From: Opitutus terrae PB90-1
GTDB lineage: Bacteria > Verrucomicrobiota > Verrucomicrobiia > Opitutales > Opitutaceae
DNA length: 64,000 bases
Direction of reading: 5' to 3'
Assembly: GCF_000019965.1 (NCBI RefSeq)
Contig: NC_010571.1
Span: 4,907,001-4,971,000 of the forward strand
Made by a program: the position numbers and the translations under genes. The notes beneath the pieces were generated by a model. The model did no database searches. It saw only the letters and a list, made by a program, of their open reading frames with translations, and was not told the origin of the DNA. Positions 1,590 to 36,575 of the stretch are shown here, piece by piece (the stretch's first letter is position 1; every line of letters begins with the position of its first letter).

Positions 1590-1698
1590 TGGCGGACGCC
1601 GGCAAGCGGCGTCCCTACGAGTGAGACGGCACGTGCTGACTGAGGCGCGACGGCTCCATGGCTTCCGCAGAAAGAGCGCGTTGAGGACAACGCGCTCC
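1590..1698. repeat. Two REP-like palindromes
   Basis: A GGACGCCGGCAAGCGGCGTCC hairpin lies near 1593-1613. A GCGCGTTG...CAACGCGC hairpin lies at 1677-1696. The second type recurs near 6972-7046, 36480-36502 and 49497-49571. The rest of 1509-1742 shows nothing else. Confidence 0.6.
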
Positions 1699-4230: not shown

Positions 4231-6861
4231 TCACCGCCCGATTTCGTTCACATCCACGAATCGCAGCGCGACTCGACTCTCAGCGCGGGATTGATCGAGC
4301 GACACGGTGAATCGCGCCTCCCAGTCGTTCTGCTCCGCCGGATCCACCAACACCTGCGCGATCTCCCACTCGCCGGTGTCCGGCGTCGCATCCCAGTGCG
4401 TGTGCTTGGTCGAGCGACCTTCGGGATCCAACTGGAACCGACCGCGGGCGTCGAAGTAGCGCATGAACGCATCCTCGATCCGGCGCGGCTCACCCTCGCC
4501 TCCGCCGACGCGTTCGGCGGCGTTTTCCCAATCGCCACCGGCCACGTCCTGCAGGAAACCGAGCAGCGCCGTGCGCACCAGCCGCCGGAATCCAGCGCGA
4601 TCGCGCGTGATATCGAATGTCGCCGGCCGCTCGGGTTTGTCCGCCGTCTCCGCGGCGACAAAATTCGGATCGCGCAGCCGTTCCCATTCCTCGAGCAGGC
4701 TTGAGTCGATCCCGCGGATCAGCTCGCGAAAATAGGTTTCCATTTCGATGACCGGCTCCGTCTTCGCGGTGTCAGGCACCGTCTGGCTCAGCACTTTCCA
4801 GGTTTGGGAAAGATGGCGCAACAGCAGCCCTTCCGAGCGTTCGAGACCGTAATCGCGGATGTAGTCGGCGAACGACAGGTAGCGCTCATACATCTCGCGC
4901 GCGATCGATTTAGGCCGGATGTTCTCCTCGCCCACCCACGGATGCGCCGCCGCCCAGGCGTTGAAGGTGTCGTAGAGAAATTCCCGTCGCGGTTTCGGAT
5001 GCTCGACCTCGTCGAGTTTCTCCATCCGTTCCTCATACGGCACGTCGGCGGCCTTCAGTTCGGCGAGCTTCTCCGTCTTCAGCTTGTCCACCTGCCGCCG
5101 CAGGATCTGCTCGGGATCCTCGACGATCGCCTCGCACAGCGTGAGCACGTCGAACGGATAGTCCGGCGACTCGCGGTCGAGCAGCGGCAGCGTGTCGATC
5201 AAGTAGAGCGAGAGCGCCTGATGCAGTGAGAAATCCTCCTGCAGGTCCACGTTCACGCGGAGTTTGCTCGGCGGTAGGGCCGCCGCTTGCCGGCGACCGG
5301 GATCATCGACAGGCGAACGCACCCCGCCTTCGCGGCCGGCGGCGAGCGCCGGCCCTACATCGGAATATGCGGCCGTGGCCTTCGGCAGAAACTCCACGAT
5401 CTTCCGTTCGAGCAGCGCGCGGAAAAGCTGCCACGCGCGATGGCGCAGCGCCTTCTTCTTGTGCGGCGTTTCATGACAGTCCGCGATCATCTGCCGCATC
5501 GCCCGGCAGCCATCGGTCTCGCGGCTCAGCATGAGCAGCAGCATGCCGTGCGAAATCTCGAACCGGGACACCAGCCCCTCCGGCGGCGCCGCCAGCAGCC
5601 GCTCGTAGGTGCGAAAATCCCAGCTCACCGCGCCTTCGGGTGCGCGCTGCTTCACGACCTTTTTCTTCTTCGGATCGGCCGCGGCTTTCTCCTCCGCGCG
5701 CTTGTTCTCGATCACGTGCTCTGGTGCCTGCACGACGACGTAGCCGGTGTCGTCGAAACCTTTCCGCCCGGCCCGGCCCGCCACCTGCCGGAAATCGCGC
5801 ACGCTCAGAACTGCCGCCTTGATGCCGTCGTATTTCCACAGCTGCGTGAACAACACCGTGCGGATCGGCACGTTGATGCCGACGCCCAGCGTGTCCGTGC
5901 CGCAGATCAACTTGAGCAGTCCTTTCTGCGCGAGCTGCTCCACCAACACGCGATACTTCGGCAGCAGACCAGCGTGATGCACGCCGATGCCGTGCCGCAG
6001 CCAGCGCTTCATTTCCTTGCCGTAGGGGCTGTTAAACTTCGCGCCGAGCAACGCCTCCTGCAGCGCCGCCTTTTCCTCCTTGGTGCAGACGTTCAGGCTC
6101 ATCAACGCCTGCGCCGCGTCCGATGCCGACCGCTGCGTGAAATACACCAGGTAGATCGGCGCCCGCCGCATCTGGATCAGCTCGGCGATCTTCTCGGTCA
6201 GCGGCGTCTCCGAATACTCGAACGTCAGCGGCACCGGCCGGCGATCGCCGCGCACCGTGACCGTCGGTGCGCCGGTGATCCGGGTGAGTTCCTTTTCGAA
6301 GAACTCCGTCGCGCCGAGCGTGGCCGACATGAGCAGGAAGCGCGTTTGCGGCATCGTGAGCAGCGGCACCTGCCACGCGTAGCCGCGCTCCGGATCTCTG
6401 TAGTAGTGAAACTCGTCCATCACCACCGCGCGGATGTCGCTGCGGTCGCCGCGATGCAGCGCGATGTTGGCCAGGATCTCCGCCGTGCAGCAGAGCACGG
6501 GGGCCTGCGGGTTCACGCTCGCGTCACCGGTCATCATGCCGACGTTTTCCGGACCGTAGTCGCGGCAGAGCGCGAGAAACTTTTCGTTCACCAGCGCCTT
6601 GATCGGACAGGTGTAGACCGAACGTTCGCCCGCGCAGAGCGACTTGAAGTGCAGCGCCGAGGCGACGAGAGATTTACCCGAACCGGTGGGCGTGTTGAGG
6701 ATCACGTTATGCCCGGCGAGCAGCTCGAGAATCGCCTCCTCCTGCTCCGGAAACAGCGTCAGCCCACGCTGCGACATCGCGCCCAGAAAATGATCGAGCA
6801 CTGCGTCCGGGTTGAACGGTCCGGGCAGCGGCGCCAAGGGTGCGGCAGGCGTGGTCGACAT
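4231..6861 (-). CDS. Ski2-like DEAD/DEAH-box helicase with DUF3516-type C-terminus
   Basis: 876 residues from ATG at 6861. The open frame continues to 7035, but that part is repeat DNA. Helicase motifs in order: Walker A TPTGSGKS, motif II DEFHYY, motif III MSATLG, motif IV-V around [16 protein letters not shown], and motif [13 protein letters not shown]. The C-terminal half (about 480-876) resembles DUF3516, which follows superfamily 2 helicases in some bacteria. The protein should unwind RNA or DNA with ATP; its substrate is unknown. About residues 500-530 are encoded by a palindromic repeat (5274-5358) that recurs in spacers, so they are probably a surface insertion, and the gene is still open. 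Confidence 0.88.
5274..5358. repeat. REP-like element inserted within the helicase gene
   Basis: It starts GTAGGGCCGCCGCTTGCCGG and ends GGCGAGCGCCGGCCCTAC, so the ends are complementary. The same layout is found in spacers at 8176-8257, 8305-8413, 13401-13452 and 22394-22474. Here it is translated in frame as an alanine-, arginine- and proline-rich segment starting near [14 protein letters not shown]. Confidence 0.88.
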
Positions 6862-6914
6862 CGCGCAAGGTCTTGCGTGCTTCGCGCCGCGATGGCGAGC
6901 TTCGACCGGTGCGA

Positions 6915-7076
6915 CGGTGAAGCGGTGAAGCCGTGAAACGGTTTCGCGATGGACGGGCAGTCCGCAGGTGGGCGCGTGATCCGTAACGCGCCGGGTTCGG
7001 CGAACCTTGGACCATCTCAGCGGCGCGTTAGGCATAACGCGCCCTACCGCCTCACCGCTTCACCGTTTCACCGATT
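6915..7076. repeat. Facing 8-bp tandem arrays bracketing two palindromes
   Basis: 6915-6945 reads ggtgaagc, ggtgaagc, cgtgaaac, ggtttcgc. 7045-7076 is the inverted partner: accgcctc, accgcttc, accgtttc, accgattg. Between them are GCGCGT...ACGCGC palindromes at 6972-6991 and 7021-7046. The right array encodes the last residues of TsaD (GETVKR), and the left one lies upstream of the helicase start. Confidence 0.8.
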
Positions 7077-8109: not shown

Positions 8110-8150
8110 GAGTCTAGAGCTGAGAGTCCAGAGCTGAGAGTCCGGAGACC
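8110..8150. repeat. Degenerate 7-bp tandem array
   Basis: The heptamers are gagtcta, gagctga, gagtcca, gagctga, gagtccg, gagacca. It begins 9 bp upstream of the tsaD start. No inverted partner was found nearby. The word resembles the array at 55051-55160. Confidence 0.7.
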
Positions 8151-8175
8151 ATCCGAAAATCGCACGATATCGGTT

Positions 8176-8413
8176 GTAGGGCTGCCGCTGGCCGGCAGCC
8201 GCGAACCACCACCGAGCGCCTGACGCGTCCCCGGCCGGCGGCAAGCACCGGCCCTACGTCCGATCCGCCCTCCGGCAATCGACTTTCGCCATCGTCGACT
8301 CGCTGTAGGGCCGCCGCTGGCCGGCGGCCGGGATCACCGACAGTCGAACGTTCCTCGCCTTCGCGGCCGGCGGCGGGTTCGACGGGCTCACCGCGGGCGA
8401 ACACCGGCCCTAC
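8176..8413. repeat. Two REP-like elements in tandem
   Basis: 8176-8257 and 8305-8413 both start GTAGGGC(T/C)GCCGCTGGCCGGC and end CACCGGCCCTAC. The second carries an extra segment (about 8373-8400) with a GGTTCGACGGGCTCACCG motif. They fill most of the gene-free stretch 8102-8469; nothing else is evident there. Confidence 0.85.
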
Positions 8414-8469
8414 GGAGAGTCTGCTGCCGGAATGCGGTTTCAGAAAGCCTCCAAAACTGAGAGAGCGCA

Positions 8470-9774
8470 TCATCGGTGCGCCACCGGCTCGCCCGCCGCG
8501 GCCACTGTGCGCCGCTGATCCAGCAGCTTGATGCCACGGAGCACGCCGAGCGCCGCCGCGAGTTGCCGGTCTTCGATCGGCGTGAAGCCGAACCGAGCTT
8601 TGAACTCGGCCGGATCCGTCACGTCCGGCCGCGTGCGCTGCACGCGCAGCTTGCTGTCCTCCTCCGGCGACAGCACCAGCTCCACGTGCGGCGCGATGCC
8701 TTTCTCGTGAATGCTGATGCCGTTCGGCGTGAAGTAGCGCGCGGTGGTCAGCCGCAGGCCCTCGCCGTCGTTGAGCTTGAAGATCGATTGCACGGAGCCC
8801 TTGCCGAACGACCGCTCGCCGAGCACGACTGCACGGCCCGTGTCCTTCAAGGCCCCAGTCACCACCTCGGCTGCGCTGGCGGTGCCGGCGTTGATGAGCA
8901 CAACGACCGGCAGGTCCAGCGGTTCGCCGTCGACTTCCGCGTGAAAGCTCTCCGAGTCGATCGCCTTGCGGCCGCGCGTGTAGACGATCAACTCGCCTCG
9001 CCGGAAAAACGGCTCGGCCACGGCAACCGCGGCATCGAGCAGTCCACCGGGATTGTTGCGCAAGTCGATCACCAGGCTGTCAACGCCCTCCTGCAGCAGC
9101 GTGTCCAACGCCCGGCCAAACTCCTCGCCGGTGCGCTCGGAAAAATCGGTGATCAGGATGTAGCCCGTGTGATCGGCGAGCACCTGCGGCGCGCGCACGC
9201 TCTCGAGTTGGATCAGCTCACGCGTGAGCGTGTGTCGGAACCGCTGGCCCGTGCTCGCGCGCAACAGCTCGATCGTCACCTGCGTGCCGGGTTTGCCCCG
9301 CAGGTTCTCGATCACGCCCTCCATCGGCGACTCCTTGTCCAGCCCCTTGCCGTCAACACTCAGAATCTCGTCGCCGCGCTGGACGCCCGCGCGCTCGCTC
9401 GGTGAGTTCGCGATCGGCGCGATGACGAGTACGTGACCTTTGCGCAGTTCGACCTGGATGCCGATGCCGCTGAAGTCGCCGGTCAGCTGTTCCTCCAGCT
9501 CGTCGAAATCGCCCGGCTCCAAGAATTCCGAATGTGGGTCGAGCGACTCGACCATGCCGTGCACCGCCTGTTTCGCCAGCTGACGGTAGCCCGCGCGGCC
9601 CGCGTCGACATAGTTTTCATTCACCATCCGGAGGACGTCGCGCACATAGTCGGTGGAGCGGTTGAGCTCGCGATTAGGCCACCAGCTCCACGCAAGTGAA
9701 AGCCGGGCCGCCGTCACCGTGAGCGCAAAGCCCAACGCGACGCCCACCGCGAGCACGAGGATCCGTCTAAACAT
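8470..9774 (-). CDS. S41 C-terminal processing peptidase (CtpA/Prc type)
   Basis: 434 residues from ATG at 9774, where a signal anchor begins (MFRRILVLAVGVALGFAL). An N-terminal helical region with ESLDPHSEFLEP is followed by a PDZ domain at about residues 90-180 (GIGIQVELRKGHVLVIAPI, then GVQRGDEILSVDG). The S41 catalytic domain follows. Ser in NAGTASAAEVV and Lys in FGKGSVQS form the expected Ser-Lys dyad. These periplasmic proteases trim C-termini of envelope proteins. The region past about residue 390 is a short helical tail. The target here is unknown. Confidence 0.93.
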   Translation of the reverse strand: MFRRILVLAVGVALGFALTVTAARLSLAWSWWPNRELNRSTDYVRDVLRMVNENYVDAGRAGYRQLAKQAVHGMVESLDPHSEFLEPGDFDELEEQLTGDFSGIGIQVELRKGHVLVIAPIANSPSERAGVQRGDEILSVDGKGLDKESPMEGVIENLRGKPGTQVTIELLRASTGQRFRHTLTRELIQLESVRAPQVLADHTGYILITDFSERTGEEFGRALDTLLQEGVDSLVIDLRNNPGGLLDAAVAVAEPFFRRGELIVYTRGRKAIDSESFHAEVDGEPLDLPVVVLINAGTASAAEVVTGALKDTGRAVVLGERSFGKGSVQSIFKLNDGEGLRLTTARYFTPNGISIHEKGIAPHVELVLSPEEDSKLRVQRTRPDVTDPAEFKARFGFTPIEDRQLAAALGVLRGIKLLDQRRTVAAAGEPVAHR

Positions 9775-13400: not shown

Positions 13401-13526
13401 GTAGGGCTGCCGCTCGCCGGCAGCCGCGGCCGGCGGCGAGCGCCGGCCCTACCCCAGGCAGATTCCCTGCCGTGTAGCCGCGCCGGTTACGACGCGGGCC
13501 GCACGGCAAAGCCGCGCGGCTGCGGA
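13401..13526. repeat. Two different REP-like palindromes side by side
   Basis: 13401-13452 is a short member of the GTAGGGCTGCCG...CCGGCCCTAC family. 13474-13526 starts GTAGCCGCGCCGGTTACG and ends AAAGCCGCGCGGCTGCGG. The second type recurs at 21291-21342 and near 38913-38955. They lie between convergent genes. Confidence 0.8.
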
Positions 13527-13555: not shown

Positions 13556-14806
13556 TCAGATCTTCCGGAACACCGCGGCGGCGTTCTGGCCGCCGAAGCC
13601 GAGGTTGTTGCTCAACACGGTCCGCACCGACGCGGGACGCGCCTGATTCGGAACGTAGTCGAGATCACATTCGGGATCGGGATTCGCCAGATTGATTGTA
13701 GGCGGCAGCGTGCCGGTCTCAATGATCTTCGCGCAGATCACCGACTCGATTCCGCCCGCCGCGCCGAGCAGGTGTCCGGTCATCGACTTGGTCGAACTCA
13801 CCGCCAGCTTTCGCGCGTGTTCGCCGAAGATTTGCTTGATCGCCAGCGTTTCGAACCGGTCGTTGTAAGGCGTGCTGGTGCCGTGCGCATTGATGTAGTC
13901 GACGCTCTCCGGTGCCGCGCCGGCGCTCGCCAGGGCGCGCTTCATCGCCATCGAGAGCCCCTTGCCCTCGGGATCCGGTTGCGTGATGTGGTGGGCGTCG
14001 CAGGTCGCGGCGTACCCCGCCAGCTCGCAATAGATCTTCGCGCCCCGCGCGCGGGCATGCGCCAGCGACTCCAGCACGAGAATACCCGCGCCCTCGCCCA
14101 TCACGAACCCGTCGCGGTCGCGGTCGAACGGCCGGCTCGCCGTCTCCGGTGAGTCGTTGCGCGTGCTCATCGCTTTCATCGCGCAGAAGCTGGCGTAAGC
14201 GAAAGGCGTGATCGACGCCTCGCTGCCGCCGGCGATCATCACGTCGGCATCGCCGCGCCGAATCATGTGCGCCGCCTCGCCAATCGCGTGCGTGCCCGTG
14301 GCGCAGGCCGACACGACGCCGAAATTCGGTCCGCGCGCGCCCAGCTCGATCGCCACGAGCCCGGAGCAGATGTTGCCGATCAGCGAGGGGATGGTGAACG
14401 CCGACACCTTGCGCGGCCCACGCTCGGCCAGCACGCGCAGCTGCGATTCGTAAGTGTTCATCCCGCCGATGCCGGAGCCGATCACTACGCCGACGCGATC
14501 GAGGTCCTCGCGCGCAGGGTCGAGCGCGGCATCACGGACCGCCTGCAGCGCGGCCACAAAGCCGAAATGCGTGTAGCGATCGTTGCGCCGCGCCTCCTTC
14601 GGGTCCATGTGCTGCGCCGCGTCCCAGTCGCGGACCTCCGCGCCGATCTGGCAGGCGAAATCCGTGGGATCGAACGCGGTGACGCGGTGCACACCCGGCC
14701 GCCCAGCCACCAGCCCGGCCCAGAACGAGGCGACCTCGTGTCCGAGCCCGTGGATGGCACCCAAGCCGGTGATCACGACGCGACGGGAATCAGGGGATGT
14801 ATCCAT
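13556..14806 (-). CDS. fabF: 3-oxoacyl-[acyl-carrier-protein] synthase II
   Basis: 416 residues, normal for KAS II. It elongates acyl-ACP with malonyl-ACP in type II fatty-acid synthesis. The catalytic triad is visible: Cys in VVSACATGTHAIGEA, His in NAHGTSTPYND, and His in SSTKSMTGHLLGAAGG. The glycine-rich tail SNNLGFGGQNAA is intact. It lies downstream of acpP and fabG in the same direction, but a strong terminator hairpin (14834-14881) separates it from acpP. Confidence 0.96.
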   Translation of the reverse strand: MDTSPDSRRVVITGLGAIHGLGHEVASFWAGLVAGRPGVHRVTAFDPTDFACQIGAEVRDWDAAQHMDPKEARRNDRYTHFGFVAALQAVRDAALDPAREDLDRVGVVIGSGIGGMNTYESQLRVLAERGPRKVSAFTIPSLIGNICSGLVAIELGARGPNFGVVSACATGTHAIGEAAHMIRRGDADVMIAGGSEASITPFAYASFCAMKAMSTRNDSPETASRPFDRDRDGFVMGEGAGILVLESLAHARARGAKIYCELAGYAATCDAHHITQPDPEGKGLSMAMKRALASAGAAPESVDYINAHGTSTPYNDRFETLAIKQIFGEHARKLAVSSTKSMTGHLLGAAGGIESVICAKIIETGTLPPTINLANPDPECDLDYVPNQARPASVRTVLSNNLGFGGQNAAAVFRKI

Positions 14807-22393: not shown

Positions 22394-22474
22394 GTAGGGC
22401 TGACGCTCGCCGGCAGCCGCTGATGCAGTCGGGGTCGCGCCAATGTCTCGGCCGGCGGCGAGCGCCGGCCCTAC
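22394..22474. repeat. REP-like element, GTAGGGCTG...CCGGCCCTAC family
   Basis: It begins 16 bases after the proC stop. The ends GTAGGGCTGACGCTCGCCGG and CCGGCGGCGAGCGCCGGCCC match the element inside the helicase gene. Confidence 0.85.
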
Positions 22475-24517: not shown

Positions 24518-24647
24518 CATGGCACGGGCGTCCCGCCCGTGATCTCAGGGCCGGCAGCGGCCGCCTGCCCGGGTTCGGACCGCTCCAGCGCGGCCGAACC
24601 AACGACGAACAGCGTCCATCGCTCACGGGCGAGACGCCCGTGCCACG
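24518..24647. repeat. Paired palindromes forming one large inverted element
   Basis: GGCACGGGCGTCCCGCCCGT at the left and ACGGGCGAGACGCCCGTGCC at the right are inverted copies about 85 bases apart. Between them lie a CCGGCAGCGGCCGCC segment and a GGTTCGGACC...CGGCCGAACC pair. It splits the transporter operon between potD and potB. Confidence 0.8.
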
Positions 24648-24701
24648 GCCAAGCCGGCCGAAGACCGAGTTCGGTCAGCGTGGGAGTCTGGGCCTGTTCT
24701 C

Positions 24702-26602: not shown

Positions 26603-26670
26603 GCAGGAGCTCACACACTTGCCGACCCGCCGCGCGCAGCGCAAGGCCGCAACACAAGGCCGCGTGGCAC

Positions 26671-26762
26671 GTGGCACGGGCATCTTGCCCGTGGGTGCTA
26701 CGTGACATTGTTTTCGCACCTCAGCCTTGCGTCCTGCTCACGGGCGAGACGCCCGTGCCACC
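26671..26762. repeat. Paired palindromes, same family as 24518-24647
   Basis: GTGGCACGGGCATCTTGCCC is at the left and ACGGGCGAGACGCCCGTGCC at the right, inverted, about 45 bases apart. It lies between the AsmA-like gene end and potC. Confidence 0.8.
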
Positions 26763-26771
26763 TCCACCCAC

Positions 26772-36367: not shown

Positions 36368-36477
36368 TATCCGCGCAAGCGGCCAGCGTGTCTGCAGCCG
36401 CGTTGTGAGTTTCTCTGATGCTGCGGCGGCGGCGCGAGAACAGCGCTACTGGCGGCATCGCGTGGTCGCCGGCAAGG

Positions 36478-36575
36478 CGGAGCGCGTTGCCCTCAACGCG
36501 CTTTCGTAGCGGAAGCGCCGGACCTCCACGGGCGGGACGCCCGTGCCACGTGGCATGGGCGTCCCGCCCATGTCA
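36478..36575. repeat. Three palindromes in tandem
   Basis: AGCGCGTTGCCCTCAACGCG (36481-36500), CACGGGCGGGACGCCCGTG (about 36528-36546) and ATGGGCGTCCCGCCCAT (about 36554-36570). The families match those near 24.5 kb and 26.7 kb. Between marR and tkt there is no gene. Confidence 0.75.

Follow-up and report, generated by a model that had tools for sequence, protein, structure and literature searches.

A mobile palindromic repeat appears to have become protein sequence in the window, the 64,000-nucleotide stretch of the Opitutus terrae PB90-1 chromosome analyzed here. The 85-bp element at 5274-5358 is a REPIN lying within the open reading frame of a DUF3516 helicase, and the corresponding site is empty in a relative of the same genus. 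The observation is real, mostly as the sequence-only reading first described it, and of a known kind; what is worth following is the parallel use of the same helicase loop by several repeat families.

A REPIN within a helicase gene

The element starts with GTAGGG and stops with CCCTAC, such that GTAG forms the outer end of both REP halves, and these 25-bp halves are arranged in inverted order with a spacer between them (Table 1). Folded whole, the element forms one long hairpin (-34.6 kcal/mol, z score -2.63, with 1 of 200 shuffles equally good). Folded alone, the half at 5334-5358 is strong (z -2.90), and the half at 5274-5298 is weaker, with two pairs in addition to its short stem (z -1.46), and is not clearly above shuffled sequences, 15 of 200 of which fold equally well. 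We identify the element as a REPIN because it is an inverted REP pair, folds as one hairpin, and belongs to a dispersed family of such pairs whose flanks are mostly noncoding.

Table 1. Positions of the REPINs, REPs, and host genes discussed in the text (window coordinates unless marked as genome)
Feature	Position	Strand	Remarks
Ski2/Mtr4-like DEAD/DUF3516 helicase ORF	4231-7035	-	934 aa from first ATG
43-residue loop containing the REPIN	5263-5391	-	10 residues in same-genus relative
REPIN, 85 bp	5274-5358	minus-strand reading	29 residues, P0001 560-588, the last partly from the flank
REP half a	5334-5358	-	GTAGGGCCGGCGCTCGCCGCCGGCC; exact fit to family pattern; 8-bp stem
Second REP half, inverted	5274-5298	+	GTAGGGCCGCCGCTTGCCGGCGACC; 3 mismatches to either main type; 5-bp stem
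Single REP, same pattern	1594-1618	-	coding-like flank on one side only
REPIN, same family, intergenic	8176-8257	.	flank test
REPIN, intergenic, nearest to helicase copy	8305-8413	.	extra sequence in one REP half
REPIN, 52 bp	13401-13452	.	outside genes by flank test
REPIN, 81 bp	22394-22474	.	outside genes by flank test
hrpA, C-terminal part	genome 13592		in-frame REP; Pfam
nuoG	genome 565849		in-frame REP; Pfam
ASPIC/UnbV FG-GAP proteins (two)	genome 578818, 2232670		in-frame REP; Pfam
GH43 enzymes (two)	genome 5605906, 5567701		in-frame REP; Pfam

The family is abundant and mostly extragenic. A degenerate REP pattern allowing up to two mismatches has 159 matches (79 + 80) in the 5,957,605-bp genome, versus seven (5 + 2) for a reversed-pattern control, and BLAST with the 85-bp element finds 42 places, itself included, at E <= 0.001 (240 first-look candidates, 40 of them scored). 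Among the matches listed, the closest other copy is at 8305-8375 in the window, 90% identical over 71 bp with the spacer included, and the next full-length copies are 79 to 80% identical. The 83 merged stretches around the listed sites hold at least 156 REPs in at least 95 clusters genome-wide; coding flanks are absent from 71 of the 95, present on a single side in 17, and on opposite strands in 1, and another 6 show the same frame on both sides, including one false match with six mismatches (12650). Inverted pairs account for 58 of the 95, with lengths of 82, 52, or 81 bp being the commonest. The element had been described as otherwise confined to spacers; this holds within the window, where none of the other four REP clusters is inside a gene by the flank test, and fails genome-wide, where the family is also present in frame in six further genes. 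We also note that the extra sequence in a REP half of 8305-8413 is GGTTCGACGGGCTCACC, with a similar one, inverted, in the GH43 copy at genome position 5567701, and that a 119-aa ORF at 8114-8473 (minus strand) is largely REP sequence between genes and is likely spurious.

The host gene codes for a helicase with PF12029 (DUF3516) at 506 bits (cut-off, 25) together with a DEAD core (PF00270 at 67.9, cut-off 26; PF00271 also above its cut-off), and its best solved sequence and fold matches are Mtr4 and Ski2. Its true start is probably Met59, beginning at 6861. The ORF is open through the REPIN with no stop or frameshift, and the sequence on either side of it scores high for coding (0.52 and 0.35). 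The part after the insert, residues 590 to 929, is still recognizable as DUF3516 (whole-protein E, 1.6e-151) and shares 79% identity with the same-genus relative G001. The in-frame insertion proposed from the sequence thus stands, with 28.3 codons and 29 residues measured for the approximately 30 residues claimed. The AlphaFold model has a mean pLDDT of 85.6, and its sole run of three or more residues below 50 (model 499-526) covers 25 of the 29 REPIN residues, which occupy model positions 502 to 530 between strands 489-491 and 534-536; the segment is therefore predicted to be disordered or flexible. Going by the architecture of Ski2-like helicases, the loop may be the wing hairpin of the winged-helix domain. 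A 549-codon open frame antisense to the helicase (window 5287-6936, plus strand) is probably a high-GC artifact.

Alignment with homologues, suggested at the outset together with a search for an empty site, shows that the extra residues are absent from most relatives. The loop is FIPPLPSGRK in G001, 10 aa versus 43 in the window helicase, and among 106 helicases, the window's own included, it has 7 to 13 residues in 89, 15 to 21 in 5, and 23 or more in 12. These counts derive from 114 helicase loci, of which nine lack the loop pattern and four of the other 105 are duplicates; the 89 comprise 85 of the remaining 101 by pattern and four of five read from the alignment (25, 11, 13, 10, and 12 residues), the rest of the nine being a duplicate (L122) and three that stop short of the loop (L026, L032, and L038). 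No conserved, nonrepetitive loop of equal length was found in the homologues, and the insert is a dispersed repeat.

On the tree, the G001 and window helicases are sisters (support, 0.96), and the G001 genome (93% complete) has no match to the REP pattern with up to one mismatch. Because the sister has a short loop and no REP matches, the REPIN most likely entered on the lineage of the window organism, although the event is only loosely dated, since the two proteins are just 76% identical. The net gain relative to G001 is 33 codons (99 nt), of which the REPIN accounts for 85 and leaves 14 extra, and the insertion junctions are thus not clean; as 85 bp is not a multiple of three, the helicase frame is kept only together with these 14 nt. 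No target-site duplication of the type used to recognize MITEs is visible in the comparison with G001, the sites there being too different.

Orientation and frame in other genes

Including the helicase (genome 4912274), seven genes carry the REP family in frame (Table 1). They are the seven retained from a list of 13 rows; the rows dropped were 11921 and 12650 (six mismatches each), 12650, 13592, and 565849 as read on the other strand, and 2096400, where the coding score is about zero on both sides. Two of those retained (2232670 and 5567701) appear at a relaxed threshold only, and Pfam supports both as real genes. Pfam domains also back the identities of the other genes. For the ORFs at 13592 and 565849, the best NCBIfam matches are HrpA and NuoG, respectively, both under cut-off, with the hrpA ORF cut by the fetched stretch.

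All seven genic copies are read in one orientation and one frame, giving VGPALAAGR (VGPALAGG in one case). Among 54 other REPINs, which still included two later placed in genes, four orientation and frame classes are about equally open (44, 46, 42, and 46 of 54), and in the two remaining classes the TAG of GTAG almost always closes the frame (1 and 0 of 54 open). Seven copies would share a class by chance with a probability of 2.4e-4, which becomes 3.9e-3 when five gene families are counted instead; the statistic is post hoc, and its independence is weaker because the seven genes include two pairs of paralogues. Lengths that are multiples of three are found in four of five genic pairs versus 13 of 53 others (Fisher P = 0.023), the 85-bp helicase copy being the exception.

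For nuoG, 28 of 29 aligned relatives reach the site, the turn is short in 25, and the REP peptide is absent from all 28, with other extra residues there in L250, L261, and L269. Opposite the hrpA insert, the Escherichia coli HrpA chain compared is gapped by 15 residues, and the two solved GH43 enzymes compared have 13 fewer residues at the GH43 insert. The two GH43 enzymes of O. terrae (35% identical) carry the REP in the same linker, which joins the catalytic domain to the C-terminal one, and the two UnbV proteins (64% identical) carry it at the same site.

Other repeat-like segments were noted in these genes. A second long insert in nuoG (L163, P0002 416-459) starts HGAATPSSRPAGSAA, and hrpA (P0004) has a similar peptide, DGAATPSSRPDA; the similarity of the two suggests that a second repeat family is read in frame in both genes. 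In hrpA (L158, P0004 1-330), the peptides GTGVPPVSPKR, NAQPSTLNSS, and ENQKSKIENS look repetitive and by eye resemble translated intergenic repeats.

Dispersed repeats in the equivalent loop of other lineages

Several long loops in relatives of the helicase also contain repeats, of other kinds. The G031 loop contains GTGGGGCCG...CGGCCCCAC, as does that of G025 with an altered tag; the L062 loop contains GTAGCAGCCGACG...CGTCGGCTGCTAC, with related sequence in L066 and, at one end only, L076; and the L040 loop contains GTAGCGGCGAGCGCCAGCAAGCC twice, with a diverged pair in L097. Strong hairpins are predicted for L011 (the G031/G025 type, z -4.45) and L062 (z -7.53), with none of 200 shuffles equally good. 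Searches of the relatives' own genomes, with up to three mismatches and the loop copy counted, show that these sequences are dispersed. The G031/G025 type has 16 matches in G031 and 4 in G025 (control, 0); the L062 type has 93, 143, and 56 in the genomes of L062, L066, and L076 (controls, 2, 0, and 3); and the L040/L097 repeat has 86 and 99 in its own genomes (control, 0), often in tandem rows. Off-target matches among the same ten genomes are 23 for the GTAGCAGCCG pattern in the L040 genome (control, 6), 21 in G010 for the GTAGGG variant of the GTGGGG pattern, and, for the GTAGCGGCG pattern, two in G025 and one in G031.

Not all of these are REP-like. As a palindrome, the GTAGCGGCG repeat of the L040 and L097 loops has a z score of only -0.35, with 70 of 200 shuffles equally good, and because its fold is no better than shuffles and it occurs in tandem rows, we treat it as a dispersed GTAG repeat and not as a hairpin family. 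The G010 loop has a strongly folding palindrome (z -6.30) that is single copy in its own genome and so is not counted as a REP insertion. The L074 loop (4483-4551) is a tandem GGAAATC repeat with no palindrome, and no repeat was recognized in the long loop of L079. Judged by these sequence comparisons, the dispersed hairpin families present in the loop number at least three, that of the window included, alongside one dispersed nonhairpin GTAG repeat.

When the long loop is mapped onto a tree of 105 helicases, at least eight gains or losses are required (L010, with 25 residues, being scored short). For L062, L066, and L076, gain and loss are inseparable because these three are interspersed among short-loop helicases. 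Inserts are also present in other helicase loops, after residues 619-623, 845-847, and 884, some with palindromes by eye, and the REPIN loop is thus favored but not unique. The plain reading is that repeats insert widely and that only tolerant turns retain them; a true insertion preference for the helicase turn is possible.

It is conceivable, though we hold this only tentatively, that the helicase turn is a recurrent landing pad for different dispersed repeats in different lineages (at least three hairpin families and one nonhairpin GTAG repeat), and that at the same time the window REPIN family has come to act as an element that can be translated, retained in genes solely in one orientation and frame (VGPALA-), often 72 bp (24 codons) long, with repeated entry into equivalent linkers of related genes. 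REPINs would then continually supply proteins with new disordered segments, subject to selection at the level of the frame.

Additional repeats were observed in the window, some with counterparts in helicases. A second palindrome family, CACGGGCGAGACGCCCGTG, occurs at 24619-24654, 26658-26693, 26734-26769, and 36522-36557, and a similar palindrome is in frame in the L015 helicase near residue 623. Inverted repeats with GAGCGCGTTG / CAACGCGCTC are present at 1661-1717 and 36460-36516, and the C-terminal loop of the L015 and L097 helicases has a similar palindrome, whose reading there is VERVDPNALS. There is also a 72-bp tandem duplication (96% identical) at 1132-1275, and a dispersed repeat, CGGTTACGACGCGGGCCGCACGGC..., at 13484, 21298, and 38915, with copies 79 to 81% like the first.

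Origin of the insertion and relationship to known systems

The insertion was very probably made by a resident REP-associated tyrosine transposase (RAYT) moving a GTAG-family REPIN into the helicase, with selection then keeping in-frame insertions in tolerant loops. The genome codes for a RAYT at 3173203-3173862 (NCBIfam NF047646, 81.6 bits; cut-off, 80) with same-family REPs flanking the transposase domain on both sides, and this is most likely the mover; a second candidate at 576027-576986 scores 71.9 bits, under the cut-off. Under this explanation, the REPIN would have inserted after the split from the closest sampled relative, landing in the turn between two strands that follows the RecA core. 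With the reading frame kept, it would be translated as a flexible segment leaving the rest of the protein unharmed. Selection would purge insertions that shift the frame, meet the TAG of GTAG, or hit structured parts, such that in-frame copies in loops and linkers would remain. The proposal that a mobile palindrome became protein sequence is supported by the empty site and the open frame.

Two alternatives are improbable to a similar degree. Instead of transposing, the sequence could have come by gene conversion or ectopic recombination from the intergenic copy at 8305, which is only about 3 kb distant and by far the closest among the matches listed; however, a new genic site would presumably have lacked homology to recombine with, the other family members are spread along the chromosome, and copying in the opposite direction, from the helicase to 8305, is equally possible. 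The insert could instead have been captured adaptively, either because an mRNA hairpin slows or tunes translation or because the peptide adds a binding segment. The presence of other dispersed repeat families in the same loop elsewhere fits this idea, and one report speculates that REP inserts changed the activity of repair proteins (PMC3733652). Yet the inserts vary in sequence and length between lineages, that of the window is predicted to be disordered, and other loops of the same protein take inserts too, and for these reasons tolerance suffices without function; the window insert may well be neutral.

Decay of the helicase gene with a coincidentally open frame is highly improbable: nothing beyond the presence of a mobile element speaks for it, and the open frame, the high coding scores, and the conserved, in-frame residues after the insert speak against it. 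The idea that the helicase ordinarily has this loop, conserved and similar to a repeat only by chance, can be dismissed, for although palindromes are common at high G+C and the folds of the element and of its weaker half are modest, the dispersed copies far exceed the control and the loop is short in most relatives, including that of the same genus.

RAYT-driven insertion followed by selection is the preferred explanation. The comparison opens two old questions to testing: whether inserts of this kind are retained for a use or simply tolerated, and whether short repeats supply proteins with new loops in a predictable way. The helicase REPIN offers a clear case, with a same-genus empty site, of mobile DNA turned into protein sequence, and the several repeat families in one loop constitute a natural replicate experiment. 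It is also a warning for annotation, as REP-encoded peptides (VGPALAAGR and similar) are not domains.

GTAG-tagged REPs are the subject of a 2013 BMC Genomics paper, reportedly authored by Di Nocera. According to that paper, intragenic GTAG REPs are most numerous in O. terrae, where the targets include both uvrA genes, DNA ligase, and RNA helicases; more than half of the intragenic REPs are dimers or groups encoding 20 to 30 residues, loops or linkers are suggested as tolerant sites, and similar REP sites are described in two Xanthomonas recB genes (PMC3733652). These REPs are like the window element in their GTAG tag, inverted dimers, and genic location, and the phenomenon of REPs inside O. 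terrae genes is thus already published. The paper, as far as its accessible text goes, is without an O. terrae empty-site comparison, the frame and orientation pattern, or one loop with several REP families, and the literature searched, within the same limit, gave no empty site for the helicase, one-frame pattern, or several REP families per loop, which leaves absence from print unproven. The present analysis adds the empty site, the restriction to a single frame, and the presence in this loop, in other lineages, of two further dispersed hairpin families and one dispersed nonhairpin GTAG repeat.

Among DUF3516 helicases of the Ski2/Mtr4 type, the window protein has the same core and DUF3516 region and differs in its long loop. 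Its insert has the architecture of the REPINs as outlined in PMC3116915 (PLoS Genet 2011), namely, two inverted REPs with a spacer, predicted to form a hairpin and thought to be mobile with a RAYT in the genome. Those REPINs are overwhelmingly extragenic, with only 14 of 1,067 occurrences of the commonest 16-mers overlapping genes in Pseudomonas fluorescens SBW25. The Rickettsia palindromic elements (RPEs) are an older example of palindromes inside genes, and they are described as in-frame palindromic repeats in unrelated genes with a conserved peptide (PMC3767692, PMC10969869, PMC3733652). They are about 150 bp long (PMC10969869), whereas the REPINs of the window family are mostly 46 to 106 bp and have a RAYT in the genome, and RPE-4 and RPE-6 are tagged with CGTC as given in PMC3733652, in contrast to the GTAG of the window element. 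In-frame residence in unrelated genes is common to both, and because the window family is in frame in seven genes but GTAG-tagged, we consider that it works like the RPEs without being classed as one of them.
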